From positions 124,001 to 188,000 of the forward strand of contig NZ_RCVM01000002.1 in the NCBI RefSeq assembly GCF_003686955.1: 64,000 bases of DNA, in the 5' to 3' direction. Position 1 is the first letter of the stretch. Each line of letters starts with the position of its first letter. Made by a program: the position numbers and the translations under genes. Source of the stretch: Streptococcus hillyeri (GTDB taxonomy: Bacteria; Bacillota; Bacilli; Lactobacillales; Streptococcaceae). Below the pieces are notes generated by a model that did not search any database, was not told the DNA's origin, and saw only the letters and a program-made list of their open reading frames with translations. Positions 10,168 through 58,639 of the stretch are shown piece after piece.

Positions 10168-10676
10168 TAATACTCATCCAAAATCAAAATTAGCAGTTTA
10201 AATCAAATCAAGAACCAATAAATGGATTGATTTTCCAGAGCTTCTTTCGCCATAGTGGTATTCTTATTAGTAAAACTGTCCAGTGGACAGTTTTAGCCCA
10301 AGCTCAGAAATAAAAGAGCGGGGGTAATTGGCTTGATAAGAACGGACTTTTTGGGAGAACTACAGAAATTGAGAATCAATTTCGTAGTAGTTCCCCCGCA
10401 AGGATGATTAGGTTGGACGCTGTCGAGTAGTCGACAAGTACAGCCAATCATCTACTGAGATAGAGAGGCTCAAATCTAGCAATGAAACTCCGTAGGAGGT
10501 TTTGACACTGACTTAGTCAGTTATATTTCCCACCTCAAAAGGTTCCCCAAACCTTATCGACTGTGACGAACTCTGTTCGTCTTATTTCCCACCTCCAAAG
10601 GTCTCCCAGACCTTTGGAGCGTCCGCACTTTTAAGAAAGAAACAAAAAGTAATTTTTGATTTTTGTTAAGTATAAA
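10168..10676. repeat. Composite BOX-like repeat, copy 1
   Basis: This 0.5-kb gene-free stretch matches 23968-24434 and 44811-45268. Order: a boxA-like head TACTCATCCAAAATCAAAA, an AAACTGTCC/GGACAGTTT palindrome, a long hairpin 10353-10397, a second hairpin 10403-10452, then two tandem tail modules. The tail hairpins are 10508-10520, a variant GACGAAC/GTTCGTC at 10565-10581, and CTCCAAAGGTCT/AGACCTTTGGAG at 10593-10619. Its last 60 nt (GCGTCCGCACTTTTAAG onward) match only the 45-kb copy. Confidence 0.85.
10353..10452 (+). ncRNA. Candidate structured RNA block within the repeat: two adjacent hairpins
   Basis: Hairpin one is a GAACTAC and GAAATTG stem closing on CAATTTC and GTAGTTC (10353-10397). 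Hairpin two has GATGATT pairing with AATCATC, GGTTG with CAGCC and TGTCGA with TCGACA (10403-10452). The same block occurs at 24161-24260 and 45004-45103. In the 24-kb copy the T-G pair of hairpin two becomes G-T. Whether it is transcribed as a separate RNA is not shown. Confidence 0.4.
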
Positions 10677-10716
10677 TATTTTTTTCAATTTGCCATGTGA
10701 TAGTGAGCAAATATAT

Positions 10717-23967: not shown

Positions 23968-24434
23968 CTAATACTCATCCAAAATCAAAATTAGAATTTT
24001 AGAACCACTAATATCGTTGAGATGGTGACGAGCGTAACGAGAAAAAATGTTTCTTTCGCTATAGTGGTATTCTTATTAGTGAAACTGTCCAGTGGACAGT
24101 TTCAGCCTGAGCTTAGAAATTAAAAAGTGAGGGTAATTGGCTTGATAAGAACGGATTTTTGGGAGAACTACAGAAATTGAAAGTCAATTTCGTAGTAGTT
24201 CCCCCGCAAGGATGATTAGGGTGGACGCTGTCGAGTAGTCGACAAGTACATCCAATCATCTACTGCGATAGAGATAAGCTCAAATCTAGCAATGAAACTC
24301 CGTAGGAGGTTTTGATGTTGACTTCGTCAGCTTCATTTCCCACCTCAAAAGGTCTCCCAGACCTTTTGAGCGCCCCACACCACATTAGGAGAAGTGCTAA
24401 CAAAAATACTAAATAAAAACTAATTGACTTTACA
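23968..24434. repeat. Composite BOX-like repeat, copy 2
   Basis: Same order as copy 1: boxA-like head, AAACTGTCC/GGACAGTTT palindrome (24081-24101), long hairpin 24161-24205, second hairpin 24211-24260 and tail hairpin 24344-24370. An extra segment with GAGATGGTGACGAGCG is present. The last 120 nt match the window start (1-117), not the tails of copies 1 and 3. No gene lies in it. Confidence 0.85.
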
Positions 24435-31082: not shown

Positions 31083-31541
31083 ATGTCAGAAACAAAAAAA
31101 TACACCATTACAGAAGTGTCACAAAAATATGATATCAATCCCAATACCCTGCGTTATTATGAACGGATAGGGCTTTTACCAGAGATTCCCCGTCAGTCTA
31201 ATGGCAATCGCTATTTTACAGATGACCTTAATAAGTGGCTTGAAATGATTATTTGCCTACGTCACTCTGGCATACCGATAGAAGCTTTGATTGATTATTG
31301 TCAGTTACTTATGCAGGGTGATCAAACGGTGGAAGCGCGTGAAGCCTTGTTACGTGAGCAACTAGCAGTACTTGTACAGAAGCAAAAAAATCTCCAACGT
31401 TCCATTGATCGCTTGACACGCAAAATTAGTCTTTATGAATCTGGAGAGATTTTAAATAAGGACACTTACTATGAAGAATATGGCATTATCTTTGATGAAG
31501 ATGGCAGCTGGAAGGAGAGACTGGATGACTTTGAAAATTGA
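31083..31541 (+). CDS. MerR-family transcriptional regulator
   Basis: A 152-residue protein with the N-terminal MerR helix-turn-helix (T-I-T-E-V-S-Q-K-Y, then N-T-L-R-Y-Y-E-R-I-G-L-L-P) and a C-terminal coiled coil (about 85-125). There is no cysteine pattern for metal sensing, which fits the aldehyde-responsive AdhR-like branch. Its likely target is the 19-bp-spacer promoter at 29943-29973. Its end overlaps the start of the broken amidohydrolase by 17 nt. Confidence 0.88.
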   Translation: MSETKKYTITEVSQKYDINPNTLRYYERIGLLPEIPRQSNGNRYFTDDLNKWLEMIICLRHSGIPIEALIDYCQLLMQGDQTVEAREALLREQLAVLVQKQKNLQRSIDRLTRKISLYESGEILNKDTYYEEYGIIFDEDGSWKERLDDFEN

Positions 31542-32420
31542 TGCTTTTGCTCATGTGCTACTCCCTGAGTTTTTTGGAAAAATGCTGGCGCTGGATAAGA
31601 ATCTAGTCTCAAAAATGCACTTTGTCCCAAATCCTGTCTTGACGGGTATGACCAAGTGTCGAGAGAGTATGCCCGATACCCCTAAACACATCGAGATGAT
31701 GTAAATACTGCTGAAGCGACTCAATTGGTAGAACTTGCGAATGAGGAATTGCTAGCGACGGTCAAAGCGAATACGGATACCTTTGCGGGTGGTGTAGCCA
31801 TGGTGGCTATGAACAATATTCCAGAAGCGGTGCGCGTGATAGAAAGTTTTGTCACTAGTCATCCTGAAATACTTGGGATTCAGTTATTTACGCGTCATCT
31901 AGGAAAATCTTTAGCAGATGAGAGTTTCAAGCCCGTCTTTGCAGCTGCTGCTAAGGCAGATATGCCAATCTGGCTCCACCCAGTTTTTGATCCACGAAAG
32001 CCAGACAATAATATTATTTTTAGCTGGGAGTACGAATTGACTCAAGCCATGCTAGACATTGTGCAGGCTGGGTATTTTCAAGAATTTCCAAATCTCAACA
32101 TCTTGGTTCATCATGGTGGGGCTATGGTTCCTTATTTTGCGGGGCGGATTGAGCATATTTTACCAGAGGAGCAGGCGAGTGATTTCAAGAAATTCTATGT
32201 AGATACAGCTCTTTTAGGCAATAGCAAAGCTCTGGAACTCTGTGTGGACTATTACGGTGTTGACCATGTTCTTTTTGGGACTGATGCACCTCTTGGGATT
32301 CTTCCAGCTGGAGCGACAGAGGTTATCCGTCACGCTATCAAAGAACTACCTTTGACGGATAATGATAAGGAAAAGATTTTTCGTGGGAATGCCAATAGGC
32401 TCTTTGGATTAGGAGGTTGA
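31525..32420 (+). pseudogene. Amidohydrolase 2 (ACMSD-like) gene, frameshifted
   Basis: The frame starts at the ATG at 31525 (AAGGAGAG site) with I-D-A-F-A-H-V-L-L-P and stops with TAA at 31702-31704. The rest continues in another frame from about 31705 (N-T-A-E-A-T-Q) to 32420, with metal or active-site segments W-L-H-P, H-H-G-G-A-M-V and F-G-T-D-A-P. The family usually has extra residues between the two halves, so a small deletion may accompany the shift. It is the third gene of the MerR cluster. Confidence 0.8.
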
Positions 32421-33750: not shown

Positions 33751-34145
33751 GAGTTTAGTCTCCTTAATATTTGTTTCCTTTATTGTACACTATTAGTTTC
33801 TATAGAACAAGACCACGAGTGTGGTGAAAACGGTAAACTCTGTATGATATAGTAATGGCATAAAGGCTGGGATAGCGTTAAGCCGCTTTGATCAATTTTA
33901 GTTCTATCAGTAGCTCCTTGCTCTTTCTGATTACTTTTTCAATTCAATATGACCTTGAATTGTTGTAAAGCCCTAGTCTTAAATTGACGGAGTTAAATCT
34001 GATAAAGTAGTCTTTGAGGCAAGTAGGTAGCCTCCTGAACTATTTTAAAGTAACAAATGGTCCGGTGCCTCACAGCTATCATGCACACCTGCTCGTGATA
34101 GCATAGCAATAGCAATCGGTATTAGCAGGTTTTACTAAAAAATAA
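33751..34145. other. Gene-free stretch with partial repeat and hairpins
   Basis: No coding region is visible. AAAGGCTGGGATAGCG (about 33861) resembles the repeat B head. GCTATCA and TGATAGC pair at about 34075-34106, and ACCTGCT with AGCAGGT at about 34088-34132, giving overlapping alternative stems. No known RNA family was recognised. Confidence 0.35.
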
Positions 34146-34674: not shown

Positions 34675-34827
34675 GCGCTTGGTAATTTCTATTATTGAAT
34701 TTGTATCTGTATCTACGACAGATACAAAAAGTTACAAAAAGATTATCATGACATTCTCTAAACGTCGTTTGAAGTTTCAACCTTGCAGACCAGCTCTGCT
34801 ATTTCCAAAAAAGAAAGAAGAAAACTA

Positions 34828-35835: not shown

Positions 35836-36673
35836 ATGGCTTATTTAGAAACCAAAAACCAATACCTTACTGTTCAAGAGAAGAACATTGCCTACCGTGA
35901 AATCGGTAAGGGGAAGTCAGACTATCCTTTGGTTATGTTAGTCCATCTCGCAGCAACCATGGATAATTGGGACCCTAAACTCATAGACCTTTTGACCCAA
36001 ACACAGCATGTCATTTTACTTGATTTACCTGGTGTTGGGGACAGCGACGGTAAGGTTGCAGGTACCATTCCAGGAATGGCAGAGCAGATGATAGATATTG
36101 TCAAAGCCCTAGGCTACAACAAAATTAACCTTCTCGGTCTGTCTATGGGGGGATGATTGCTCAAGAAGTGGTGCGTATGGCTCCAACTTTGGTGAATCGC
36201 TTGATTTTAGTAGGGACTGGTCACCGTGGCGGACTTGGTATTGATCAGGTAACAGCAAAGACCTTCCGTTATATGGCACGAGCTGCTTGGCATCGTGTGG
36301 ACCCTAAACGTTATATTTTTTATGGTCATGATGACAATGGCAGAGCAGAAGCAGATAAGGTGCTCAGTCGCCTAGCCAGTCGCAAGAAAGCTTATGCAGA
36401 CAAAGAGATGGCTGTGCCCAGTTTTTTGCGCCAGTTAAAAGCCATTAAAACCTGGGGGAAGCACCTGAAGATGACCTACAGTTTGTGACCCCACCAACCC
36501 TGATTGTCAATGGTGACAAGGACATGATGGTACCAACAGAAAACTCCTACATCATTCATGACAAGATTGCGAATAGCCAACTGATTATCTATCCTCATGC
36601 AGGCCATGGGTCGATCTTTCAGTATGCGGAAGATTTTGCTAAGGAGTTAGAAGTGTTTTTAACTCTAAGATAA
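35836..36673 (+). pseudogene. Alpha/beta hydrolase gene broken by two single-base losses in G runs
   Basis: Three frames chain into one hydrolase of about 280 residues. The first ends in the nucleophile elbow G-L-S-M-G-G at 36156, and the second begins M-I-A-Q-E-V-V. The second ends at 36488 and the third continues with T-P-P-T-L-I-V-N-G-D and the active-site H-A-G-H-G-S. At the first junction (G run 36145-36150) and the second (G run about 36453-36457) one missing G restores the frame. Either it is recent decay, slipped-strand variation or sequencing error. Confidence 0.85.
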
Positions 36674-44773: not shown

Positions 44774-44810
44774 ATGAGAGGTTACGGAAAGTATAGTTGG
44801 GCACAAGTTT

Positions 44811-45268
44811 TATACTCATCGAAAATCAAAATTAGCATTTTAGAACCTCTAATACTTTTGAGGCACTATCGAACGAAGTGAGGCTGAAATGTTTCTTTCG
44901 CTATAGTGGTATTCTTAGCAGTGAAATTGCCCAGTGGACAGTTTCAGTCTGAGCTTAGAAATACAGGAGCTCAGAGTAAACTCTTGATAAGAACGGACTT
45001 TTTGGGAGAACTACAGAAATTGAGAATCAATTTCGTAGTAGTTCCCCCGCAAGGATGATTAGGTTGGACGCTGTCGAGTAGTCGACAAGTACAGCAAATC
45101 ATCTACTGCGATAGAGATAAGCTCAAATCTAGCAATGAAACTCCGTAGGAGGTTTTGATATTGACTTTGTCAACTCTATTTCCCACCTCAAAAGGTTCCC
45201 CAAACCTTTTGAGCGTCCGCACTTTTAAGAAAGAAATAAAAAGTAATTTTTGATTTTTGTTAAGTATT
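44811..45268. repeat. Composite BOX-like repeat, copy 3
   Basis: Head TATACTCATCGAAAATCAAA is the closest of the three to pneumococcal boxA. It contains a degraded AAATTGCCC/GGACAGTTT palindrome, long hairpin 45004-45048, second hairpin 45054-45103, TTGAC/GTCAA at 45161-45173 and CTCAAAAGGTT/AACCTTTTGAG at 45187-45213. The tail matches copy 1. It runs up to the promoter of the HAD gene. Confidence 0.85.
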
Positions 45269-46128: not shown

Positions 46129-47154
46129 ATGTTTGGACTACAGAAAAAATTACCTGGCTTGTTACTTTGTATCGGACTTGCTATACCAGCTTGGTTGTTT
46201 GGGAAGTGGCTTCCTTTAGTTGGGGCACCTGTTTTTGCGATTTTTCTTGGTATGCTAGTAGGACGTGTCCACCAAAACCGAGAAAAGACCCGTTTAGGAA
46301 TCACTTTTACATCAAAATACCTGCTACAGACAGCTGTGGTACTCTTAGGCTTTGGCCTGAACCTTTCCCAAGTCTGGGCTGTTGGATTAACGTCGTTACC
46401 AATTATCATCAGCACCATCGTAACTGCACTACTCACCGCCTATGTCTTGCAGAAGTGGCTCAAACTGGATGTGAATACCACAACTCTAGTCGGTGTGGGC
46501 TCTTCTATCTGCGGAGGCTCTGCTATTGCCGCGACAGCGCCAGTTATCGAAGCCAAAGATGAAGAAGTGGCTAAGGCGATCTCCGTCATCTTCCTGTTCA
46601 ATATCTTAGCTGCGCTTACTTTTCCAACGCTGGGAGAGGTGCTTGGGCTGTCCAATGAAGGTTTTGCCCTATTTGCGGGAACGGCAGTCAATGATACCTC
46701 TTCTGTGACGGCGACAGCGACAGCTTGGGACGCGATTCACGGTAGCAACGCCCTAGATGGGGCAACTATTGTCAAATTAACCCGTACCTTAGCCATTATT
46801 CCAATTACACTAGGCTTGTCTTTTTATCGAAGTTATCAGGTTTTGAAAAATGGCGGAGCTGCTCAGTCAACTTTTAGTTTTAAGCGATCTTTTCCGATGT
46901 TTCTCCTTTATTTCCTACTTGCTTCGCTGTTAACAACCGTAGTTAGTAGTCTGGGAATGACAGTAGAACTCTTTGACCAATTCAAAATCTTATCAAAATT
47001 CTTTATCGTCATGGCTATGGGAGCTATTGGCTTAAATACAGACATCATCACATTAGTCAAAACAGGCGGTCAAGCCATCGGTGTTGGTGCCACTTGTTGG
47101 ATAGCCATAACTGTTGTCAGTCTAATGATGCAAAAAGCAATGGGGATGTGGTAA
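46129..47154 (+). CDS. YeiH-family (UPF0324) membrane protein
   Basis: A 341-residue integral membrane protein with about ten helices. It has the family's conserved [15 protein letters not shown] and G-T-A-V-N-D-T-S-S segments. YeiH-like proteins are putative sulfate/sulfonate or anion exporters, but no function is firmly set. AAGGAG precedes the ATG. It stands as a single gene between HAD and AKR genes. Confidence 0.88.
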
Positions 47155-47228
47155 GACCGATGAAATGGACTAGTATAGCTCATGACCAATGCTCAACATG
47201 TAGGAGCAATACTTGAGATGCCAATACA

Positions 47229-47262
47229 AGAAAAAGCTGGGAAATCATTCCTAGCTTTTTAA
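47229..47262. terminator. Bidirectional terminator
   Basis: AAAAAGCT-GGAA pairs with TTCC-AGCTTTTT between converging yeiH-like and AKR genes. Confidence 0.8.
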
Positions 47263-47264
47263 GA

Positions 47265-48104
47265 TTACTCCATGTCTAAAGCAACTCGATGACGTGGTGC
47301 TGGAAATAGCTGGTTTAAAAGGTCCAACTGTTTTGGGGTTAATGTTATCTGTTGGCAAGCTACTAATTGTTTCATGTGCTCTAGTTTGCCGCTTCTAGGA
47401 ATGGATACCATGTTTTTCTGAGCAAGGGTAAAGCAGAGCAACAACTGGTAACAGTTTAGTTTTAAATCTGCTGCTAACGCTTGCAAATCTTGGTTGGTCA
47501 AAAGGCGACGATTCAAATCACCTGCCTGAGCTAACGGGCAGTATGCCATAGTCGGTATCTGATGAGCATCTTGAAAGGGTTTTAAAGCGTATTCAATTCC
47601 TCTTGAACCTAGATGGTAGAGAACTTGATTGGTTGCACACTGTTTACCATCTGGTAATTCAAGCAGCTCTTGCATATCTTCTAAATCAAAATTAGACACT
47701 CCCCAGTTCAGTATTTTCCCTTTCTTTTTCATTTGTTCGAGCATGTCAATTGTTTCATTCAGTGGGGTATTACCTCGCCAATGATAAAGGTAAAGGTCAA
47801 GATAGTCCGTTTTCAAACGACTTAGAGAAGCGTCAAGGCTAGCTTCTAACCGTTTAGCATTAGCATTTGAAGGCAAGACTTTTGACACAAGGTGAATCTT
47901 GTCACGTTGAAATGGCTGGATGGCTTTGCCAACTAACGTTTCGGCTCTGCCATTGCCATACATTTCTGCAGTATCAACGATAGTTACACCATTTGATAAG
48001 GCGTACTGTAACGCGGCAATTTCCTCTTTTTCTTTGTGGGGACTTTCGCCTAAAAACCAAGTACCGACACCGAGATGAGGTTGTGTGATGAGAGTGTTAG
48101 TCAT
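47265..48104 (-). CDS. Aldo/keto reductase
   Basis: A 279-residue AKR. The catalytic set is Asp and Tyr in D-T-A-E-M-Y-G-N-G, Lys in L-V-S-K-V and His in Y-H-W-R-G. It differs clearly from the AKR at 30 kb. AAGGAGAT precedes the ATG on the minus strand. It lies 42 nt downstream of the broken CdaR gene on the same strand; whether it belongs to the hexarate system is unknown. Confidence 0.88.
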   Translation of the reverse strand: MTNTLITQPHLGVGTWFLGESPHKEKEEIAALQYALSNGVTIVDTAEMYGNGRAETLVGKAIQPFQRDKIHLVSKVLPSNANAKRLEASLDASLSRLKTDYLDLYLYHWRGNTPLNETIDMLEQMKKKGKILNWGVSNFDLEDMQELLELPDGKQCATNQVLYHLGSRGIEYALKPFQDAHQIPTMAYCPLAQAGDLNRRLLTNQDLQALAADLKLNCYQLLLCFTLAQKNMVSIPRSGKLEHMKQLVACQQITLTPKQLDLLNQLFPAPRHRVALDME

Positions 48105-48146
48105 AGAAATCTCCTTTATTTGATGTTGTTTTTATTAGTTAGAGGA

Positions 48147-49275
48147 CTAATCTTGAAGTTTATAGAGGATTGAAGCCAATTTCAAGGTGAAAAAATCCGA
48201 TAAAACACGAGGATCATAACCGGTTAAATCGGTTATTTTATTGAGTTGGTATTGGACGGTGTTTTTATGAATGAATAAGGTTTCCGCACATTGTTTAATG
48301 CTGCCATTGCATGATTCGTAAGTATCAAGCAGTGACAACATGTGTTCAATGTCTTGCTTGGGAAGGTCATTAAAAAGATTGTTTAGAAAATACGATTTGT
48401 TGCCGGCATTTACATCGTGTAAAACTAAACCATAAGCCATATCAGTGAAAGCTAAGGTTTGTTGATGTGAAAAATGTTTGTTCCAACTTAAAGCAGTTTT
48501 GGCCTGATCAATGCTTTTTTTAAGCTCGCCATGTCCTTTTCCAGGAGTTCCAGCTCCAAAAATCAGTGTAATATGGTATTTTTGTTCAAGAAGTTGACAG
48601 ATTTGTTGGATGGTTGTTGTCACTTTTTGTGATTTTTGCGTGGGGAGAAGAGCTAGAAAAAGGTTTCCACGCATTTCAAAAATGGTACGTTTATCCTTGC
48701 TAAGTAGATTTTCTAAATCGAGATAGAAGTGGCTTTGTTGCTCAAAAAAGTAATCGCTGGGACTATTCAGTGGGAGGCCAGCAATGGCCGTGTAATACTG
48801 ATTGTCTATGTCGATACCATATACCATATACCATATCTAATGATCGCTGATTTTCTGCTGAATCATTATCTTGAATAATCGTAAGGATATGGGAGTGAGC
48901 ATTTCTTCGATTGTAAACAACTTCTTTGGCCATATTGTTTAGGATGAGAACTTCGGTCATTTCTTTGATGATTTCACCATATTGTGAAACCTCCTCTTTT
49001 TTACCAGTTATTCCAATGACTCCAACCATTTGGTGGTCAATAGCAACAGGTAGATTGATGCCTTGTTTTGCTCCCTTGTACTGATCATCGTATTCGATAA
49101 CGATGGCTTGATTGGCTTCGAGAACAAATTGTGCGCCTTGATGATTTTGTTGACCAATCCTGCTAGGGTCGGTACTGGCAATGATAATCCCCTCTGTCGA
49201 AAAGAAATTCAATTCTTGTTGAATAATATGTTTCATCCGGTTGACGATATCCTGAGCAAGTAGTGCATCAATCAT
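48147..49275 (-). pseudogene. CdaR-type sugar-diacid regulator, out of frame by a 7-bp repeat
   Basis: The gene starts at the ATG ending at 49275 with a sugar-diacid recognition domain (A-Q-D-I-V-N-R-M-K; V-M-I-G-I-T-G-K-type core). It then shifts frame at the ATACCAT repeat (48814-48834), and the second part holds the PucR/CdaR C-terminal helix-turn-helix (L-F-I-H-K-N-T-V-Q-Y-Q-L). Joined, it would be about 375 residues, normal for CdaR. It is divergent from the GntP permease and most likely activated the hexarate genes. Confidence 0.85.
48814..48834. repeat. Three tandem copies of ATACCAT that set the CdaR reading frame
   Basis: ATACCAT at 48814-48820, 48821-48827 and 48828-48834. With two copies the minus strand reads through as L-D-M-V-Y-G-I-D-I-D-N in one frame. 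With three the frame ends early at W-P-P-T-E. Confidence 0.95.
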
Positions 49276-49440
49276 AGGTTTTTCCTTTCGGCTTTAATAT
49301 TCTTTAGACTAATTATACTACATTTAAAGAAGAGTAGGGTCAAAAAAAGAAGATAAGCTTAATGTGTTTCGTATTTTAGGTTTTGTTACAGAGACTAAAA
49401 ATAAAGACAGAAAAAGGTTGAAAGTCTAGTTTGTGATACA

Positions 49441-49601
49441 TTGAACAAAAACTTATGAATGCGTTATCATATTAACATGAAATATAAGGACTGCAACTTA
49501 TTATCATAATATGTTGTAACCTCATCTTGTTGAGAAAGCTAGCGTCTTTACAAGAATGGTGTTACGTTGACTACACTACACTAATGTTAGCTGACATTAG
49601 T
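49441..49601 (+). promoter_or_regulatory. Control region of the hexarate cluster: promoter, cre, two inverted repeats
   Basis: TTGAAC (49441-49446)-18-TATCAT (49465-49470) with ATGAATGCGTTATCA (49455-49469) matching the cre consensus at 14 of 15 positions between them. CAAC-ATTAT-ATAAT-GTTG inverted repeat at 49494-49516 is a candidate regulator site. ACTAATGT-6-ACATTAGT at 49580-49601 lies just before the ribosome site. The rest of the 348-nt region shows nothing else. Confidence 0.6.
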
Positions 49602-49623
49602 CATTAAAAAGGAGTTCATGACT

Positions 49624-50964
49624 ATGGATAGTGGATTTATCAGTTTGCTAGGGATACTCTTAGCGCTATTCTTCCTCATTTGGGGATCATTTAAACAGAT
49701 TCCAATTTTAGTATTGGGACCGGTTGCGGCAGTCGTTGTTATTTTCTTATCAGGATTGCCACTGACAGAGACGTTGACAGGTGAATACGCTGAGTCATTT
49801 GCTGGTTTTGCGAAAAGTAATTTCTTGATCTTCTTACCAGCAACTGTTCTTGGCTCTATGCTGGGTGATTCAGGCGCTGCACAAGATATTGCCAATAAAA
49901 TCGCTGAGTGGTCAATGCGAAAAGGCGGCAAAAATGCTAAATTCTGGGTATTGATGGGTCTGTCACTTATTACAGCTATTCTTTCCTTTGGTGGTGTTAG
50001 TGGATTTGTCGTTATCTTCACCATTGCGCCAATCTGTTTCCGTATTTTTAAAGAACTAGACATTCCATGGCATTTTATCATAGCAGTATCAGTTTATGGT
50101 GGTTCAATGTGGACTGCAATTTTACCTGGTTCACCTGCTATTCAAAACTTGATTCCAATGGAGTCATTAGGAACTAAACCAACGGCTGCACCTGTTCTAG
50201 GGATTATTGCTGCGGGTGTTTCTATTCTCTTTGGGGCTTGGTATATTTGGTGGATGCTCAAGAGAAATGAGAATCGTGGCGAAGGATTTGAAAAGAGTGG
50301 TCACAAGATGGAAGCTGCTTCTCAAATTCTAGCGATGAAAGCTATGGACAAGAAAACCACAACGTTGGATTTTATTAAGGCTTTGACACCTTCAATTGTG
50401 TTGATTGTAGCAATGAATGTGTTTGATGTGGCACCATATCTTTCATTAACTTTAGGCTGCCTTGTTTGTTTTGCACTTTACTTCAATAAATTCGTGAATT
50501 TCCGAAACACAATGGCTGATGGTGTGAATTCAACCATGAAGTCAATCATGAATGTTGCAGCAGTCGTTGGTTTTGGTGGTGTTGTAGCAGTTGCACCTGG
50601 GTTTGATTATCTTGTTGCGAATTTGGATAAAATTCCTGGTCCACCACTCATTCAATTAGCTATCGCGACTAACTTGGTCGCAGGTATTACTGGTTCGGCA
50701 TCAGGTGGTGAGGCAATTTCATTGAATGTATTTGCGCCTCGTTTCCTTAAACAAGGTATTAGTGCAGATGTCCTTCACCGTATGGTAAACATTTCTTGTT
50801 ACGGTTTGGATTCATTGCCACATAATGGATCAGTTATTAACCGTTTAAATTACACTCATCTCACACACAAGGAAGGTTACTACCATGAATTTTGGCTTGG
50901 AGCTGCATTCCCACTAGTTAACTCAATATTCATTGCCGTTCTTGCCTCATTTGGTATTGTTTAA
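49624..50964 (+). CDS. GntP-family permease, probable hexarate or glycerate uptake
   Basis: A 446-residue proton-coupled symporter with about 12 membrane helices and the family's P-H-N-G-S-V-I segment near the C-terminus. GntP members carry gluconate and related acids; in this cluster glucarate or galactarate is the natural guess. ATG 49618 is 3 nt from GGAG, and ATG 49624 at 9 nt is preferred. First gene of the cluster; gudD starts 19 nt later. Confidence 0.85.
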   Translation: MDSGFISLLGILLALFFLIWGSFKQIPILVLGPVAAVVVIFLSGLPLTETLTGEYAESFAGFAKSNFLIFLPATVLGSMLGDSGAAQDIANKIAEWSMRKGGKNAKFWVLMGLSLITAILSFGGVSGFVVIFTIAPICFRIFKELDIPWHFIIAVSVYGGSMWTAILPGSPAIQNLIPMESLGTKPTAAPVLGIIAAGVSILFGAWYIWWMLKRNENRGEGFEKSGHKMEAASQILAMKAMDKKTTTLDFIKALTPSIVLIVAMNVFDVAPYLSLTLGCLVCFALYFNKFVNFRNTMADGVNSTMKSIMNVAAVVGFGGVVAVAPGFDYLVANLDKIPGPPLIQLAIATNLVAGITGSASGGEAISLNVFAPRFLKQGISADVLHRMVNISCYGLDSLPHNGSVINRLNYTHLTHKEGYYHEFWLGAAFPLVNSIFIAVLASFGIV

Positions 50965-50983
50965 AAAGTAAAGGAAGTATCGT

Positions 50984-52327
50984 ATGGGTAAAGCACCTAA
51001 AGTTGTTGAAATGGATATTTATCCTGTAGCGGGTCATGATAGCCCACTCTTAACCTTGAGTGGCTGTCATGCGCCGTATTTTACGAGAAACATCGTTGTT
51101 TTAAAGGATGAGACAGGTAACCTGGGCATTGGTGAGATTCATGGTGGTGAACATATTACTGAACAACTAAACAGTTATAAGCCATTTGTTATTGGTGAAC
51201 GTGTTAGTGAATATCGTAAAGTTCTAACCAATATTCGCCGTAGTCGTCAACAATCTGCCGCTGACGATGGCAGTGGACTTCAAGAATTAAATATTTCAAA
51301 TTTAAAATTCGTGGTTCAGTCTGAGGCGGCCATTGAATGTGCCATGCTTGATCTATTTGGTAAATTTTTAGAGTTACCGATTGCTGCACTGCTAGGAGAA
51401 GGTGGTGTGCAGCGTGATGAAGTGGAATTTTTAGGCTATCTCTTCTATTCAGCAGATTCAAATAAAATAGATTTGCCATATGAAAAACCAGATGGAACAG
51501 ATTCGTGGGAGTCACTTCGACGGTCTGAGATGATGACACCAGAAGCGATTGTAAAGCAAGCTAGTGTTCTAAAAGATAAATACGGCTTCAATAATTTTAA
51601 ATTAAAAGGTGGCGTCCTTTCTGGTGAAGAAGAAATGAAATCTGTAGATGCTCTAAAGGCTGCTTTCCCTGATGCCAGAATCAATATTGATCCTAATGGG
51701 GCTTGGTCACTAGAAGAAGCGATTCGTTTGTCGCAAGGTCGTAAAGATGTTCTGACCTATATCGAGGACCCTTGTGGACCAGAGTCTGGTTTCTCTAGTC
51801 GTGAAGTTATGGCAGAATACCGTGATGCCACAGGCATTCCCGTAGCAACCAATATGATTGCAACTAACTGGAGACAATTTCATCATGCGGCAGCGCTAAG
51901 AAGTGTGAATATTGTGTTAGCTGATCCTCATTTCTGGACATTAGATGGCAGTGTTCGTATGGCTTATCTGCTTAATGAGTGGGGACTGACGTGGGGGTCA
52001 CATTCGAACAATCATTTTGACATTACTTTGGCTACTTTCGTACACGTTGCGGCAGCTGCACCAGGTAACATTGCTCCAGTTGATACTCACTGGATTTGGC
52101 AAGATGGTGAGTCCTTACTGAAAGAACCAATTGAAATCAAGGATGGTAAGATTAAGCTGTTTGACAAACCTGGATTAGGAGTCGAGATTGATCTTGACAA
52201 GTTGAAAAAACAGCATGAACTTTACAAACAAATGCCGTTTAAAGATCGTGATGATACGATTGCCATGCAATATTTAGAAGAAGGTTGGACCTTTGATCCA
52301 AACCGTCCCGTTTTTTGTCATAAATAA
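50984..52327 (+). CDS. gudD: Glucarate dehydratase
   Basis: A 447-residue enolase-superfamily enzyme dehydrating D-glucarate (and L-idarate) to 5-keto-4-deoxyglucarate. It has the K-L-K motif (N-F-K-L-K-G-G), metal ligands in D-P-N-G-A-W and Y-I-E-D-P-C-G, A-T-N-M-I, and the catalytic His in W-G-S-H-S-N-N-H-F-D. All match E. coli GudD. GGAAG precedes the ATG; the next gene starts after 18 nt. Confidence 0.94.
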   Translation: MGKAPKVVEMDIYPVAGHDSPLLTLSGCHAPYFTRNIVVLKDETGNLGIGEIHGGEHITEQLNSYKPFVIGERVSEYRKVLTNIRRSRQQSAADDGSGLQELNISNLKFVVQSEAAIECAMLDLFGKFLELPIAALLGEGGVQRDEVEFLGYLFYSADSNKIDLPYEKPDGTDSWESLRRSEMMTPEAIVKQASVLKDKYGFNNFKLKGGVLSGEEEMKSVDALKAAFPDARINIDPNGAWSLEEAIRLSQGRKDVLTYIEDPCGPESGFSSREVMAEYRDATGIPVATNMIATNWRQFHHAAALRSVNIVLADPHFWTLDGSVRMAYLLNEWGLTWGSHSNNHFDITLATFVHVAAAAPGNIAPVDTHWIWQDGESLLKEPIEIKDGKIKLFDKPGLGVEIDLDKLKKQHELYKQMPFKDRDDTIAMQYLEEGWTFDPNRPVFCHK

Positions 52328-52345
52328 TGGCAAGAGGTAAGGAAT

Positions 52346-53482
52346 ATGACTTATCAAGTAGATAAAATTACAGAAATTGAAGTTAAATTAATTTGTGTTC
52401 CGTTGAAGAAAGCTGTTAGCGATGCCAAGGTTATCCAAGGGAAACAGACGCCCTTAAAAGAAGTCATGATAACTGCTGCAATAATCAAAACAGAAGCAGG
52501 ATATACAGGAATGGGGTACACTTACTGCAAACGGTTTGGTGGGCCCGCTCAATATGCTCTTGCTAAAGAATATGCGCCGTTGTTAATTGGGGAAGATCCA
52601 AATGATATTAGTCGTTTATGGGATAAATTGCTTTGGTCAAGTATTTCAATTGGAGATTCTGGTGTTGCTGTTCAAGCTATCACACCGTTTGACATCGCTC
52701 TCTGGGACATCAAGTCTCAGCGAGCAGGGTTTTCTTTAAGTAAATTGCTAGGACAACATAAAGAATTTGTACCTTGTTACAATACAACAGGAGGATTTTT
52801 ACAAGACTCTATTGATGAAGTTATCGCCCATGCCCATTCTGTACTGGAACAAGGAGTTGGTGGGATAAAAATCAAAGTTGGACAAAAAGACTACATGGAA
52901 GATGTTCGCCGTGTAGCAGCCCTACGAAAAGCATTAGGGGATGATGTCCCAATTATGGTTGATGCTAATCAACAATGGGATGTTTCAACAGCGCTTAAAG
53001 CTGGGAAGTATTTTGATGAATATAACCTAGTTTGGTTAGAAGAACCAGTTAAAGCTCATGATGTTGACGGTCACTTACGATTATCACAAGTGCTAGGAAC
53101 ACCGATAGCGACTGGTGAAATGTTAACCAGCTTTGCTGAAGGATTACCATACTTTGAAAAACGTGCCTTTGATGTCTGTCAGTTGGATTGCCCTCGAATT
53201 GGTGGTATCACACAATACCGTAAGGTCATTCAGAGAGCAGAAGAGAATAATATCACGTTAGCACCGCATTATAGCATGGAGTTGCATTTACCACTAGCAG
53301 CTTGCTATATTGGTGATGCTTGGGTTGAACATTTTGAATGGTTTGAAACCGTTGGATTGTTCAATGAAAAAATTGAATTAGTTGATGGAAAAATGAAAGT
53401 GCCAACGCGTCTTGGTTTGGGATTGAGCTTTAACGAAGCTACCTTACCAAGTCTTCAATTGGATGCGACTGTATTTCATTAA
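52346..53482 (+). CDS. Mandelate racemase-type dehydratase, probable talarate/galactarate dehydratase
   Basis: A 378-residue enolase-superfamily member of the mandelate racemase subgroup. K-I-K-V-G supplies the base lysine, V-D-A-N-Q and L-E-E-P-V the metal ligands, and P-H-Y-S-M-E-L the His partner. The pattern resembles L-talarate/galactarate dehydratase of Salmonella. It would convert galactarate or talarate to the same 5-keto-4-deoxy acid made by gudD, widening substrate range. AAGAGGTAAGG precedes the ATG. The exact sugar acid is inferred from context. Confidence 0.82.
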   Translation: MTYQVDKITEIEVKLICVPLKKAVSDAKVIQGKQTPLKEVMITAAIIKTEAGYTGMGYTYCKRFGGPAQYALAKEYAPLLIGEDPNDISRLWDKLLWSSISIGDSGVAVQAITPFDIALWDIKSQRAGFSLSKLLGQHKEFVPCYNTTGGFLQDSIDEVIAHAHSVLEQGVGGIKIKVGQKDYMEDVRRVAALRKALGDDVPIMVDANQQWDVSTALKAGKYFDEYNLVWLEEPVKAHDVDGHLRLSQVLGTPIATGEMLTSFAEGLPYFEKRAFDVCQLDCPRIGGITQYRKVIQRAEENNITLAPHYSMELHLPLAACYIGDAWVEHFEWFETVGLFNEKIELVDGKMKVPTRLGLGLSFNEATLPSLQLDATVFH

Positions 53483-53519
53483 TCAGAAGTTAGTATAAGA
53501 AAGTGAAGAGGAGAAAATA

Positions 53520-54709
53520 ATGTCAGTACCTACAGTTGTTAAAATGGATGTCTACCCTGTTGCAGGATATGATTCAATGCTATTGAATTTGAGTGGTGCA
53601 CACGGCCCATACTTCACGAGAAATATCGTGATTTTGGAAGATAGTTCAGGAAATCTCGGTGTTGGTGAAGTACCAGGTGGTCAAAAAATTACAGATGTTC
53701 ACGTTCAAACAGCAGTTGAAACGCCACTTCTTGATCTTCTTGGTCAACATTTGAAAGTGCCAGTAGCTGCCCTTCTTGGAGATGGTCAAGTGCGTGAAGA
53801 TGTGCCATTCCTTGGATACCTTTTCTACGTTGCTGATCCAAATAAAACAGATCTACCATACCTTCAAGGCGATGATGAATCAGATGATTGGGGACGTCTT
53901 CGTCGTAAAGAAGCAATGACACCAGAAGCGATTGTTGAGTTGGCAAAAGCAGCTTACAAACGTTATGGTTTCAAAGACTTCAAACTGAAAGGTGGAGTAT
54001 TAGAAGGAAAAGAAGAAGCTAAAGCTATTAAAGCGCTTAAAAAAGAATTCCCAGATGCTCGTATCACCCTAGATCCAAATGGTGCTTGGTCACTTAAAGA
54101 AGCTATTGAAATTGGTAATGATTTAAAAGGTATTGCAGCTTATGTTGAGGATCCATGTGGTGCTGAGGATGGTTTCTCAGGACGTGAAGTTATGGCAGAA
54201 TTTGTGAAAGCAACTGGCATTCCAACAGCAACAAACATGGTTGCTACTGACTGGAGACAAATGCAACATTCTGTGGCCCTACATTCTGTAACTATTCCAT
54301 TGGCGGATCCTCACTTCTGGACAATGCAAGGGTCTACACGTGTTGCTCAAATGTGTCATGATTTTGGTATGACATGGGGAGTTTATTCAAACAACCACTT
54401 TGATATTTCACTTGCTATGGTTGCTCATGTTGGTGCCGCTGCGCCTGGAACAATTAACGCCTGCGATACACACTATATCTGGCAAGATGGTCAATTCTTG
54501 ACAAAAATCCTCATAAAATTGAAAATGGTGTGATTCATATTGCTAAAGATTCTGTCGGACTAGGTATCACACCAGATTTGGAAGCTATTAAAAAAGCAAA
54601 TCAACTTTACCTTGAAAAAGGTTTAGGTGCGCGTGATGATGCAACAGCTATGCAATACTTGATTCCAGGTTGGGAATTTGACAATAAAAAACCAAGTTTA
54701 GTTCGTTAA
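53520..54709 (+). pseudogene. Second glucarate dehydratase copy, decayed
   Basis: Clearly homologous to the gudD at 50984 along its length ([22 protein letters not shown]). Against that copy it lacks 50 residues after G-G-Q-K-I-T-D (about 53694), in frame. It has G-V-Y-S-N-N-H where the intact copy has catalytic G-S-H-S-N-N-H. It loses frame near 54500 at an A run: one extra A restores N-P-H-K-I-E-N-G through to TAA 54707-54709. A good ribosome site remains. Confidence 0.88.
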
Positions 54710-54720
54710 GGAGATCTATA

Positions 54721-55629
54721 GTGATTGATAGAAATACTGTCAAGGGGATTGTAGTACCAATTATTACCCCCGTTGATGATAATGAAAATATCGATGATGT
54801 GCGACTTAGAAAAATCGTTAATCATGTGATTGAAAATGGTGTTCATGGCATACTAGCATTTGGTAGCAATTCAGAGTTTTACATGTTTGAAACAGATGAA
54901 ATGCTCCATGCCTTAGATGTCATCATTGAAGAAACTGCGGGACGAGTTCCAGTTTACTTTGGAATTGGTGCTATTAGAACGCGCAAATGTGTTCAAATTG
55001 CACAAGAAGCTACTAAGCGTGATATTGCTGCTATCTCTGTTTTAAATCCGATGTTTATTAAACCAACATCGGAAGCTCTCTACAATCACTTTAAAACAAT
55101 TGCAGAGAGTGTTTCTGAGACAGCGGTATTGATTTACAATAATCCTGGTCGTTCAGGATACAGCGTTCCACTTGACATTATTGTTCGTTTAGCGCATGAT
55201 GTAGATAATATCGTTGGTATTAAAGATTCTAGTGGTGATATTACATTTTGTAGTGAATTGATTCGACAAACACAAGATGTTGATTTCCGTGTGATGACTG
55301 GTAAAGATACCACTGTTTTCCCAGGGTTATGCGTTGGAGCTGTTGGAAGTGTTTGCTCAACGGCTAATATGTACACTAAATTGGTAAGTAGCATTTATGA
55401 TCATTATGTAGCTGGAAATATTAAAGAATCACTAGCAGCGCAATTTAGGCTAAATCCGATTCGCCTATCACAAGATGCTGCAAGTTTCCCTGCTGCAACA
55501 AAAGATATGGCGAACTTAATGGGATTAGATGTAGGAAAATCAATTTTACCAACTGAAGCAAGTACAGGGACTGTATTAGAAAATATGAAGGCTGAAATGC
55601 GTAAAGGTGGTTTTTTAGCAGATAGTTAA
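54721..55629 (+). CDS. DapA-family aldolase, probable 5-keto-4-deoxyglucarate aldolase
   Basis: A 302-residue class I aldolase/lyase of the DHDPS/NAL family. The Schiff-base Lys is in G-I-K-D-S-S-G-D and the Tyr in Y-N-N-P-G-R-S-G-Y. It lies exactly where the pathway needs 5-keto-4-deoxyglucarate cleavage to pyruvate and tartronate semialdehyde, since a reductase and kinase for those products follow. In enterics GarL (HpcH family) does this. A dehydratase role (KDGDH) is the alternative but no ketoglutarate semialdehyde dehydrogenase is nearby. Start is GTG 8 nt after AAGGAG. Confidence 0.75.
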   Translation: MIDRNTVKGIVVPIITPVDDNENIDDVRLRKIVNHVIENGVHGILAFGSNSEFYMFETDEMLHALDVIIEETAGRVPVYFGIGAIRTRKCVQIAQEATKRDIAAISVLNPMFIKPTSEALYNHFKTIAESVSETAVLIYNNPGRSGYSVPLDIIVRLAHDVDNIVGIKDSSGDITFCSELIRQTQDVDFRVMTGKDTTVFPGLCVGAVGSVCSTANMYTKLVSSIYDHYVAGNIKESLAAQFRLNPIRLSQDAASFPAATKDMANLMGLDVGKSILPTEASTGTVLENMKAEMRKGGFLADS

Positions 55630-55642
55630 CAGGAGGAGTCGT

Positions 55643-56785
55643 ATGGGAAAAAAAATTGTCATTGCATCTGATTCATTTAAGGGCAGTGCCAGTTCTAAAG
55701 AAATTGGAACCTATATTGCTGATGGTATCCATAGCCTATACCCTGACTATGACACAACTATTTTTTCAATTGCCGATGGTGGTGAAGGAACTGTAGATGC
55801 CATTCTTGAGGTTAATAAAGGCCATAAAGTAACGATTGAAGTACAAGGTCCTTTAGGAAATCCAGTGGAAGCTTCCTATGGCATCATTGATGATGGCAAG
55901 ACTGCTGTTATGGAAATGGCAGCCGCTTCAGGAATTACTTTAGTCCTTACTTCAGAACTTGATGTCTTGAAAGCGTCAACTTATGGTACTGGTCAAATGA
56001 TTAAAGAGGCCATTGAAAAACATGTTGAACGCATTTACATTGGTATTGGAGGTTCTGCTACCAATGACGGTGGTATGGGGATGGCAAGTGCTTTAGGAGC
56101 GAAATTCTTTGACGAAGATGGTCTTTCACTTGAGGCTAAAGGAGAAAACCTTTCTAGAATTGTTAACTTAGATATTTCAGAACTTGAAACATTGGTAGAT
56201 GGTGTTGAAGTGATTATTTTATCTGATGTCACCAATCCTCTTTGTGGGCCAAATGGTGCAACGGCAGTCTATGGTCCACAAAAAGGTGCAACGCCTAGTC
56301 TCATTCCTGTTTTGGATGACGGACTTGCAAATTTTGCTCAAGTTATTGAAAAGTATCTCAAAAAAGATGTTAAAGATCTACCAGGGGCAGGTGCTGCGGG
56401 TGGCTTAGGAGCTGGTTTAATGGCTTTTCTAAACGGAAAAACAGAACGTGGCATTGATAAAATTTTAGAGTTAATCCATATCGAAGAAGATATTGCAACA
56501 TCAGACCTAGTCATTACTGGTGAAGGTAGAATGGATGGTCAATCGATTAATGGGAAGGCACCGCTTGGCATAGCGACTATCGCTAAACGCTATCAAGTTC
56601 CAGCTGTTGCTATTGTTGGAAGTTGCTCGAATGATTTGACTGAGGTTTACGATTTAGGAATTTCAGGTGTCTTTGATATCATTAATCGACCAATGACTTT
56701 AGATGAAGCGATGCTCCAAACTCCAGAACTTGTGAAATCAGTCAGTCGCAATGTAATCAGTTTATTTAGTTTTCTAAACAAATAA
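55643..56785 (+). CDS. garK: Glycerate 2-kinase
   Basis: A 380-residue GarK/GlxK-family kinase: I-A-S-D-S-F-K-G-S near the start, A-D-G-G-E-G-T-V, G-I-G-G-S-A-T-N-D-G-G-M-G and G-E-G-R-M-D-G-Q. It phosphorylates the glycerate made by the tartronate semialdehyde reductase, feeding glycolysis at 2-phosphoglycerate. AGGAGG precedes the ATG, 13 nt after the aldolase gene. The gap to the reductase gene is longer (101 nt). Confidence 0.93.
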   Translation: MGKKIVIASDSFKGSASSKEIGTYIADGIHSLYPDYDTTIFSIADGGEGTVDAILEVNKGHKVTIEVQGPLGNPVEASYGIIDDGKTAVMEMAAASGITLVLTSELDVLKASTYGTGQMIKEAIEKHVERIYIGIGGSATNDGGMGMASALGAKFFDEDGLSLEAKGENLSRIVNLDISELETLVDGVEVIILSDVTNPLCGPNGATAVYGPQKGATPSLIPVLDDGLANFAQVIEKYLKKDVKDLPGAGAAGGLGAGLMAFLNGKTERGIDKILELIHIEEDIATSDLVITGEGRMDGQSINGKAPLGIATIAKRYQVPAVAIVGSCSNDLTEVYDLGISGVFDIINRPMTLDEAMLQTPELVKSVSRNVISLFSFLNK

Positions 56786-56821
56786 TCACGTTAAAATGGT
56801 ATGAAATATAGTATGTGTACT

Positions 56822-56841
56822 ATATCATGGTTATATGATAT
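56822..56841 (+). promoter_or_regulatory. Inverted repeat between glycerate kinase and reductase genes
   Basis: ATATCAT-6-ATGATAT, 45 nt before the reductase ATG. This could be an operator of an internal promoter; no clear -35/-10 pair is seen. Confidence 0.35.
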
Positions 56842-56886
56842 TTGTTAGAATTATAGCTATAGAAGTCAGAAAGGAAATAAGAAAGA

Positions 56887-57768
56887 ATGAAAATTGGTTT
56901 TGTTGGTCTAGGAATCATGGGGAAACCTATGGCAATCAATTTGGTTAAAGCAGGGCATGAAGTATATGGCTTTGACTTTAATCCAAAAAGTGTTGAAGAA
57001 TTAGTCGCAGCAGGTGGACATGCTGCAGAAAGTGGTAAAGTAGCAGCTGAAGTTGCTGAGCTTGTGATTACCATGTTACCAAATTCACCACACGTAAAAG
57101 CAGCCTTGTTTAATGAAAATGGTATCGCAGAAGGTCTTTCAGCTGGTAAAACAGTTATTGACATGAGTTCAATTTCACCAGTAGCAAGTAAAGAATTCTC
57201 TGAAAAATTGAAAGAATTGTCAGTTGATTTCTTAGATGCTCCTGTTTCTGGTGGAGAACCAAAAGCTATTGACGGTACTATTGCGGTTATGGTTGGCGGA
57301 GATGAGACAGTCTTTAATCGCTATAAGAATGTTCTTCAGGCTATGGCAAGTAGTGTAACATTGGTGGGTGAAGTTGGTGCAGGTAACTTGACTAAACTTG
57401 CTAATCAGATGATTGTGGCGGTTAATATTGCTGCCGTTTCAGAAGCTTATTCATTGGCTAAAAAAGCTGGTGTTGAACCATCACGTGTTTATGAAGCGAT
57501 TCGTAGTGGTTTAGCTGGCTCAACAGTTATGGATCAAAAATCTCAAAAAATGTTTGATGGAGATTTTGCTCCAGGTTTCCGTATTGACTTGCATATTAAA
57601 GATTTGCAAAATGCTTTGGATGCCTCACATTCCTTTAATGTTGCTACACCATTTACAGCACAAGCAATGGAAATACTTCAGGTCTTGAAAGCTCATGATT
57701 ACGGTTCAGAGGATCACTCTGCTATTGCTCGATACTATGAATTGGTTAATGGGCAAAAGTTACAATAA
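56887..57768 (+). CDS. garR: Tartronate semialdehyde reductase (2-hydroxy-3-oxopropionate reductase)
   Basis: A 293-residue beta-hydroxyacid dehydrogenase: N-terminal G-L-G-I-M-G-K-P-M (7-15), substrate motif D-A-P-V-S-G-G, and catalytic Lys in G-N-L-T-K-L-A-N-Q. It reduces tartronate semialdehyde to glycerate. It is the last gene of the cluster, followed by a terminator. AGAAAGGAAATAAG precedes the ATG. Confidence 0.92.
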   Translation: MKIGFVGLGIMGKPMAINLVKAGHEVYGFDFNPKSVEELVAAGGHAAESGKVAAEVAELVITMLPNSPHVKAALFNENGIAEGLSAGKTVIDMSSISPVASKEFSEKLKELSVDFLDAPVSGGEPKAIDGTIAVMVGGDETVFNRYKNVLQAMASSVTLVGEVGAGNLTKLANQMIVAVNIAAVSEAYSLAKKAGVEPSRVYEAIRSGLAGSTVMDQKSQKMFDGDFAPGFRIDLHIKDLQNALDASHSFNVATPFTAQAMEILQVLKAHDYGSEDHSAIARYYELVNGQKLQ

Positions 57769-57778
57769 TCAATCGTTT

Positions 57779-57806
57779 AAGCCGGTTTTACTGCTGGCTT
57801 TTTTTC
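57779..57806 (+). terminator. Terminator of the hexarate cluster
   Basis: AAGCCGG with CTGGCTT (one G-U pair) followed by a T-run. Confidence 0.8.
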
Positions 57807-57874
57807 AGTAAAGGTTAGATATTAAAGTCTAGTTATGCTATGATAAATTATCATTGGTAATAAGAAAGGCTCAC

Positions 57875-58639
57875 ATGACCCCTATTTATTTTTTAGACGG
57901 ATTGGGTAGTAACCGTCATTATGTTACCCGCTTGGAGGAGGCTTTGGTTGAACAAGGTTTTGAGTTGACCTATCTAGCCTTGCCTGGGCAGCCTGATAAT
58001 TTTGATTGCCCTATAGAAACCTTAGAAGATTTGACTGCATGGTTTAACAAGCAGACTCCAAATACTCCCTTTATTTTGATGGGATTTTCTCTAGGAGCGG
58101 ATTTTGCGGCTTATTTAGCGAAACAGTCTTCCCATGTCTCGCATCTCATTTTACTTGATGGTGGCTTTATGGATTTTGACGTTTTTGGGTATTCTTTAGA
58201 GCAAGAGTTGGCGGACACTAAGGCTTATTTTGCTTCTGAGACCTTTGCGGATTTGGGAGAAAAGCTGCGCGAAGAGGAGAAGAGTGCTGACTATTGGGGT
58301 GAGGATTTGGAAAAAGCAGTGCGTCATGCCTATGTCAAAAAAGAAAATCAGTACCAGTTAAATCTTAATTCAGAAATTATTCTTAACCTCCTAAAAATCA
58401 GACGTGACTGCCAGTTTGTGATTTCAAAACCAGATTTTTCAGTCCCAACACTGATGATACTCTCAGACAGTCCCGCTGAATTCTTAGACTTCAAACAAAC
58501 ACAATTAAGTAAAATTAAAAATAACCATATCACTAGTAAGATTCTTTCAAACACCACCCATCACCTCTATCTTGAAAAACCTAATCAAGTGGCAGTAACG
58601 ATTAAAGATGTCGTGTCAAACTTTTCCAAAACTCTTTAA
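57875..58639 (+). CDS. Alpha/beta hydrolase
   Basis: A 254-residue hydrolase with nucleophile elbow G-F-S-L-G-A (about 79-84), an aspartate in the L-I-L-L-D-G-G strand and a late His in T-T-H-H-L-Y. Early F-L-D-G-L-G-S-N-R is the oxyanion region. The ATG at 57854 lies 21 nt upstream without a ribosome site; AAAGG precedes 57875. Substrate not predictable; this family includes esterases and thioesterases. Single gene. Confidence 0.82.
   Translation: MTPIYFLDGLGSNRHYVTRLEEALVEQGFELTYLALPGQPDNFDCPIETLEDLTAWFNKQTPNTPFILMGFSLGADFAAYLAKQSSHVSHLILLDGGFMDFDVFGYSLEQELADTKAYFASETFADLGEKLREEEKSADYWGEDLEKAVRHAYVKKENQYQLNLNSEIILNLLKIRRDCQFVISKPDFSVPTLMILSDSPAEFLDFKQTQLSKIKNNHITSKILSNTTHHLYLEKPNQVAVTIKDVVSNFSKTL

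Follow-up and report, generated by a model that had tools for sequence, protein, structure and literature searches.

In the sequenced isolate of Streptococcus hillyeri, the gene of a CdaR-type sugar diacid regulator changes reading frame at three perfect copies of the 7-base unit ATACCAT. A second gene of the same glucarate/galactarate cassette, gudD2, is also broken, and the whole cassette is absent from the closest relative found, G106. Inactivation of the regulator by 7-base slippage is probably part of a recent and ongoing loss of a dispensable glucarate/galactarate pathway. Positions refer to the window, that is, the whole stretch of 64,000 nucleotides that was analysed.

The three full copies of ATACCAT occupy positions 48814-48834. 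The complete array measures 23 bases (3.3 copies, 100% match; Table 1), and on the minus strand, which is the coding one, its unit reads ATGGTAT. Translation of the N-terminal ORF of the regulator continues through the array and stops 51 bases beyond it. The start codon of the C-terminal ORF, an ATG, lies inside the array. Diacid_rec is found in the N-terminal ORF (133.4 bits, cut-off 23.6), GGDEF_2 (34.7 bits, cut-off 24.5) and HTH_30 (60.2 bits, cut-off 27) in the C-terminal one. All three domains exceed their Pfam cut-offs, but they are distributed over two ORFs of different frames. Their order, as well as the divergent orientation of the gene with respect to the glucarate/galactarate gene set, is that of CdaR-type sugar diacid regulators, from which this gene differs in that the 7-base array divides it between two frames. 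A second Diacid_rec match, as expected of a spare regulator, is not found in the isolate's own draft genome (G000), where the domain is matched only once.

Table 1 Positions of the repeat array, the two regulator ORFs and the surrounding cassette genes in the window
Feature	Position	Strand	Evidence or remark
Whole glucarate/galactarate cassette, 10.8 kb	47102..57872		Absent from closest relative found, G106
Aldo/keto reductase gene	47265..48104	-	Neighbour of the regulator in the five cassette-bearing relatives
C-terminal ORF of CdaR-type regulator, 226 aa, GGDEF_2 and HTH_30	48147..48827	-	Start within the array
ATACCAT array, 3.3 copies, frame-change site	48814..48836	-	Sequence, tandem repeat finder, comparison with random contigs
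N-terminal ORF of CdaR-type regulator, 170 aa, Diacid_rec	48763..49275	-	Last ~18 aa out of frame
Putative sugar-diacid transporter	49618..50964	+	Divergent from regulator; role inferred from position and hydrophobic sequence
gudD1, full-length, glucarate-dehydratase-like	50984..52327	+	TIGR03247 623.1 bits, below the 828.7 cut-off
L-talarate/galactarate dehydratase	52346..53482	+	NF047820 521 bits, above the 500 cut-off
gudD2, broken glucarate dehydratase gene	53520..54533	+	138-base internal deletion and later frameshift
DHDPS-family protein, probable pathway aldolase or dehydratase	54721..55629	+	Role inferred
Glycerate kinase	55643..56785	+	TIGR00045 458.5 bits, above cut-off
2-hydroxy-3-oxopropionate (tartronate semialdehyde) reductase	56887..57768	+	NF008592 424.7 bits, above the 397 cut-off

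Orthologues of the regulator were sought at the DNA level in 284 genomes of the genus, one per species and the isolate's own included, a search that may miss more diverged orthologues. Ten genomes gave a match: its own, five of the 283 others with an orthologue (G121, G043, G211, G042 and G073; stretches L050-L054) and four in which only 23-43 bases matched the query. With a shorter query, 335 genomes of the family yielded four of the same five orthologues and one 23-base match. In a set of 98 genomes, the regulator matches of G042, G043 and G073 each form one open frame without stops, of 381, 376 and 377 amino acids. The array flanks have no match among viral contigs. A search of plasmid records produced 52 matches, with identities of 60-80%; the 20 listed all lie over the gudD genes. 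In the same collection, the 16S match ranked first is to a Streptococcus agalactiae record (94.4%), in keeping with the genus Streptococcus.

In all five orthologues the two halves of the regulator are in the same frame, and none of the five carries the ATACCAT array. The starts of the two matched parts are 448 bases apart in the window, against 441 in four orthologues and 438 in G073; the orthologue spacings are multiples of 3 and 448 is not. MAFFT placed the 7-base gap slightly upstream of the array, as the repeats allow, and it is the net difference that counts. The preliminary description had proposed that the gene is split at the three copies and that losing one of them would rejoin the halves. 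The position of the frame change confirms the first point, and we agree with the second. Relative to the five, other indels in the gene are multiples of 3 only, and no stop or frameshift is present other than at the array. Since the halves are in frame and the array is lacking in these orthologues, three copies are the derived state. The orthologues' codons aligned to the array region encode Met-Leu-Tyr-Gly-Ile; in the lineage of the window, a run of codons for Met-Val-Tyr-Gly-Ile makes up the two-copy precursor.

Within the stretches retrieved, the five relatives share the gene order of the cassette. Only L051 and L053 extend to the tartronate semialdehyde reductase, the stretches of the other relatives ending before it. 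The putative transporter has no Pfam or NCBIfam match at an E-value of 0.001. Its sequence is conserved in the five relatives (86.9-89.8% identity).

Judged by uvrC, the closest genome is G106 (88%), followed by one at 79%. The regulator has no match in G106 in either the genus or the family DNA search. On the two sides of the cassette site, G106 DNA is 94.6 and 92.5% identical to that of the window, and the counterparts of window positions 47101 and 57873 are 97 bases apart. Because the flanks adjoin in G106, there was either a gain of the cassette in the window's lineage or a loss in that of G106. G204 is more distant, and its matches to window positions 46141-47132 (71%) and 58079-58277 (69%) are 288 bases apart, which would make a gain in the present lineage the simpler reading.

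The second broken gene of the cassette is gudD2. Compared with all five relatives, it shows a deletion of 138 bases after position 53695 and, near 54502, a gap of 1 base. When the full-length gudD2 of G121 was used as a query against the isolate's own draft genome, only the three pieces of gudD2, in two frames, and gudD1 were found. The 7-base repeat change can undo neither lesion. The lesions of gudD2 could be private to this isolate. On the glucarate dehydratase profile TIGR03247, gudD2 obtains 750.4 and 751.0 bits in two of the five relatives and 739.7 in Atopostipes, and gudD1 obtains 619.3 and 619.0 bits in two relatives; none of the gudD1 and gudD2 proteins scored, including gudD1 of the window, reaches the curated cut-off of 828.7. 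As gudD2 scores higher than gudD1, the broken paralogue is the more GudD-like one. The best solved-structure matches of gudD1 are glucarate dehydratases (555.8 bits, against 532.9 for a glucarate dehydratase-related protein). On the strength of this similarity gudD1 may be active, and it may replace gudD2. In the cassette genes other than the regulator and gudD2 the frames are open, and the galactarate branch may survive a reversion of the regulator.

Codon-position identities to the five relatives are, on average, 83.4% at positions 1+2 and 47.8% at position 3 for the N-terminal part of the regulator, 72.1% and 38.9% for its C-terminal part, and 94.7% and 47.3% for what remains of gudD2. Positions 1+2 are still more conserved than position 3, so the lesions would be young compared with the divergence from the relatives, although they cannot be dated closely: over the greater part of this divergence the genes were constrained, and the constraint mostly reflects the time before the lesions arose. 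The C-terminal part of the regulator is further from the relatives than these are from one another (72.1% against 88.2%, the latter between L054 and the other four). The neighbouring aldo/keto reductase behaves likewise (78.0% to the relatives, 86.6% among them).

We propose the following course of events. Codons for Met-Val-Tyr-Gly-Ile would by chance have formed a two-copy 7-base repeat, to which replication slippage would have added a third copy. The regulator would then end early, its sensor parted from its DNA-binding half. The cassette would presumably no longer be induced, and growth on the sugar acids would be lost. The duplication could be reverted by the same slippage route, but probably rarely, and a revertant regulator would still leave the cell without gudD2. 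The regulator has lost its frame relative to intact orthologues, and further lesions are present in a functionally linked gene. As the regulator lesion is one of several in the cassette, it would be a sign that a dispensable pathway is being lost. The counterpoint is that the regulator itself carries only one lesion, and a reversible one.

Two other genes of the window are also broken relative to G106. Among 21 G106 ORFs listed with matches of more than 70% identity, some of them overlapping and probably spurious frames, two have a split counterpart in the window. One is an amidohydrolase-family gene (31525-32417), out of frame with 25 bases fewer than in G106. The other is an alpha/beta hydrolase gene (35836-36661), which has 1 base fewer than in G106 at two places, both at or near G-runs; these two losses could be real decay or sequencing error. 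Comparison with G106 also revealed a repeated element: window positions 10242-10681, 23971-24375 and 44808-45267 all match, at about 87-92% identity, one G106 region located at about 14.5-15.0 kb of the joined stretch.

The significance of the array itself was assessed on its 199,992-base contig, by comparing perfect runs with those of 20 first-order Markov random contigs. For period 7, the ATACCAT array is the only run of at least three copies, and the random contigs contain none. Runs of at least two copies number 14, the ATACCAT array included, against a mean of 12.65 in the random contigs, so that there is no enrichment. When periods 5, 7, 8, 10 and 11 are pooled, 7 of the 20 random contigs hold a run of at least three copies. 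The three-copy array therefore exceeds chance for its unit length, but it is not in itself rare for some short unit to form three copies. Besides it, no perfect array of at least three copies with a unit of 4-12 bases is present on the contig other than a 12-base TTCG run, and none with a unit of 5-12 bases. In the whole draft genome (2,147,614 bases, 83 contigs) the three-copy pattern occurs once. The reversed pattern, used as a control, likewise scores 1, which is explained by its being a rotation of this array. The tandem repeat finder additionally reports imperfect arrays, each with about three copies, at 34098-34116 (period 6) and, within gudD1, at 51287-51309 (period 7, 81% matches). A two-copy 10-base repeat (TACAAAAAGT) at 34723-34741 lies between ORFs and corresponds to a 13-base insertion relative to G106.

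The preliminary description regarded the array as a slipped-strand phase-variation switch and mentioned simple decay as an alternative. Its idea that a slippage-type 7-base duplication breaks the regulator frame is supported. A switch in the full sense, with copies gained and lost often and usefully enough for populations to hold both cdaR-on and cdaR-off cells, is unlikely. The array has the first feature of a contingency locus, as it is perfect, lies in coding sequence and has a unit that is not a multiple of 3, and the regulator gene bears no second lesion. The second feature, presence in related species, is lacking in all five orthologues. Moreover, three copies make a very short array, two-copy runs of the same period occur at chance frequency, and the contig contains no other perfect array of at least three copies with a unit of 5-12 bases. 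Such a three-copy array is a mutation hotspot, not by itself evidence of an evolved switch. The E. coli lacI gene provides a parallel: its tandem-repeat frameshift hotspot, a short unit present three times within a regulator gene, is not an evolved switch; the differences are a unit of 4 bases instead of 7 and its description in laboratory mutants. The state of gudD2 also bears on this choice. Further disabling mutations had been named earlier as evidence against a switch; none was found in the regulator when compared with the five orthologues, but gudD2, elsewhere in the operon, carries two. With a second gene of the pathway broken in ways that the array cannot undo, ordinary gene loss is the better reading.

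Streptococcal precedents for reversible duplications exist. Titles cited by PMC4022640 report that sequence duplications in pneumococcal capsule genes cause phase variation, in one case at high frequency (Waite et al. 2001, 2003). As far as these titles tell, they share with the present case a coding-sequence duplication with loss of function, reversible in principle; here, the duplication is of 7 bases only, affects a metabolic regulator instead of a capsule gene and is known from one sequence. PMC4022640 gives reversion at about 1e-5 or less for insertions of up to 9 bp, which speaks against frequent switching. Each of the three copies in the array carries an ATG, each in a different frame. 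A low-frequency bistable activator, in which gain or loss of a copy would shift both the frame and the start of the DNA-binding half so that a few cells induce the galactarate branch, is accordingly conceivable, but we give it very little credence.

It is also very improbable that the three-copy call is a sequencing or assembly error and that the gene of the isolate is intact. The genome is a draft of 83 contigs, and G-runs, a source of errors on some platforms, lie at or close to both 1-base losses of the nearby hydrolase gene. On the other hand, a duplication of 7 bases within an array of 23 does not resemble a typical homopolymer error, and a short read spans such an array. The nearby differences of 138 and 25 bases are also unlike homopolymer errors.

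Least credible is a two-part regulator, in which the C-terminal half would start at the array ATG and act as a sensor-less DNA-binding protein, so that regulation would be changed and not abolished. The C-terminal ORF does possess this ATG and retains HTH_30 and most of GGDEF_2 (profile positions 15-115 of 116), but inspection by eye detected no Shine-Dalgarno-like sequence just upstream of the ATG, and none of the five orthologues is split. Programmed ribosomal frameshifting was rejected, as it would require a +1 shift, the site contains no stop and the array is missing from the orthologues.

Loss of glucarate/galactarate use has a precedent in typhoidal Salmonella. According to PMC11077982, gud and gar genes of the same pathway are pseudogenes in Salmonella Paratyphi A, and CdaR is reported to be functional in S. 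Typhi; in the window, by contrast, it is the regulator and a gudD that are broken. The passages of PMC12817950 consulted on copy-number change concern long promoter repeats and have no bearing on the ATACCAT array. Among the literature matches listed, no title or abstract opening describes the regulator gene, and a search for 7-bp reversible frameshifts gave no match.

As it stands, the split regulator gene is a modest example of pseudogene formation, and it shows that a slippage site can arise from a few ordinary codons. Copy-number variation within populations, if it occurred, would make the gene an unusual example of a phase-variable catabolic activator. Under the preferred reading of pathway loss, the cassette would record how a streptococcus recently lost an accessory sugar-acid pathway, with the traces still readable.
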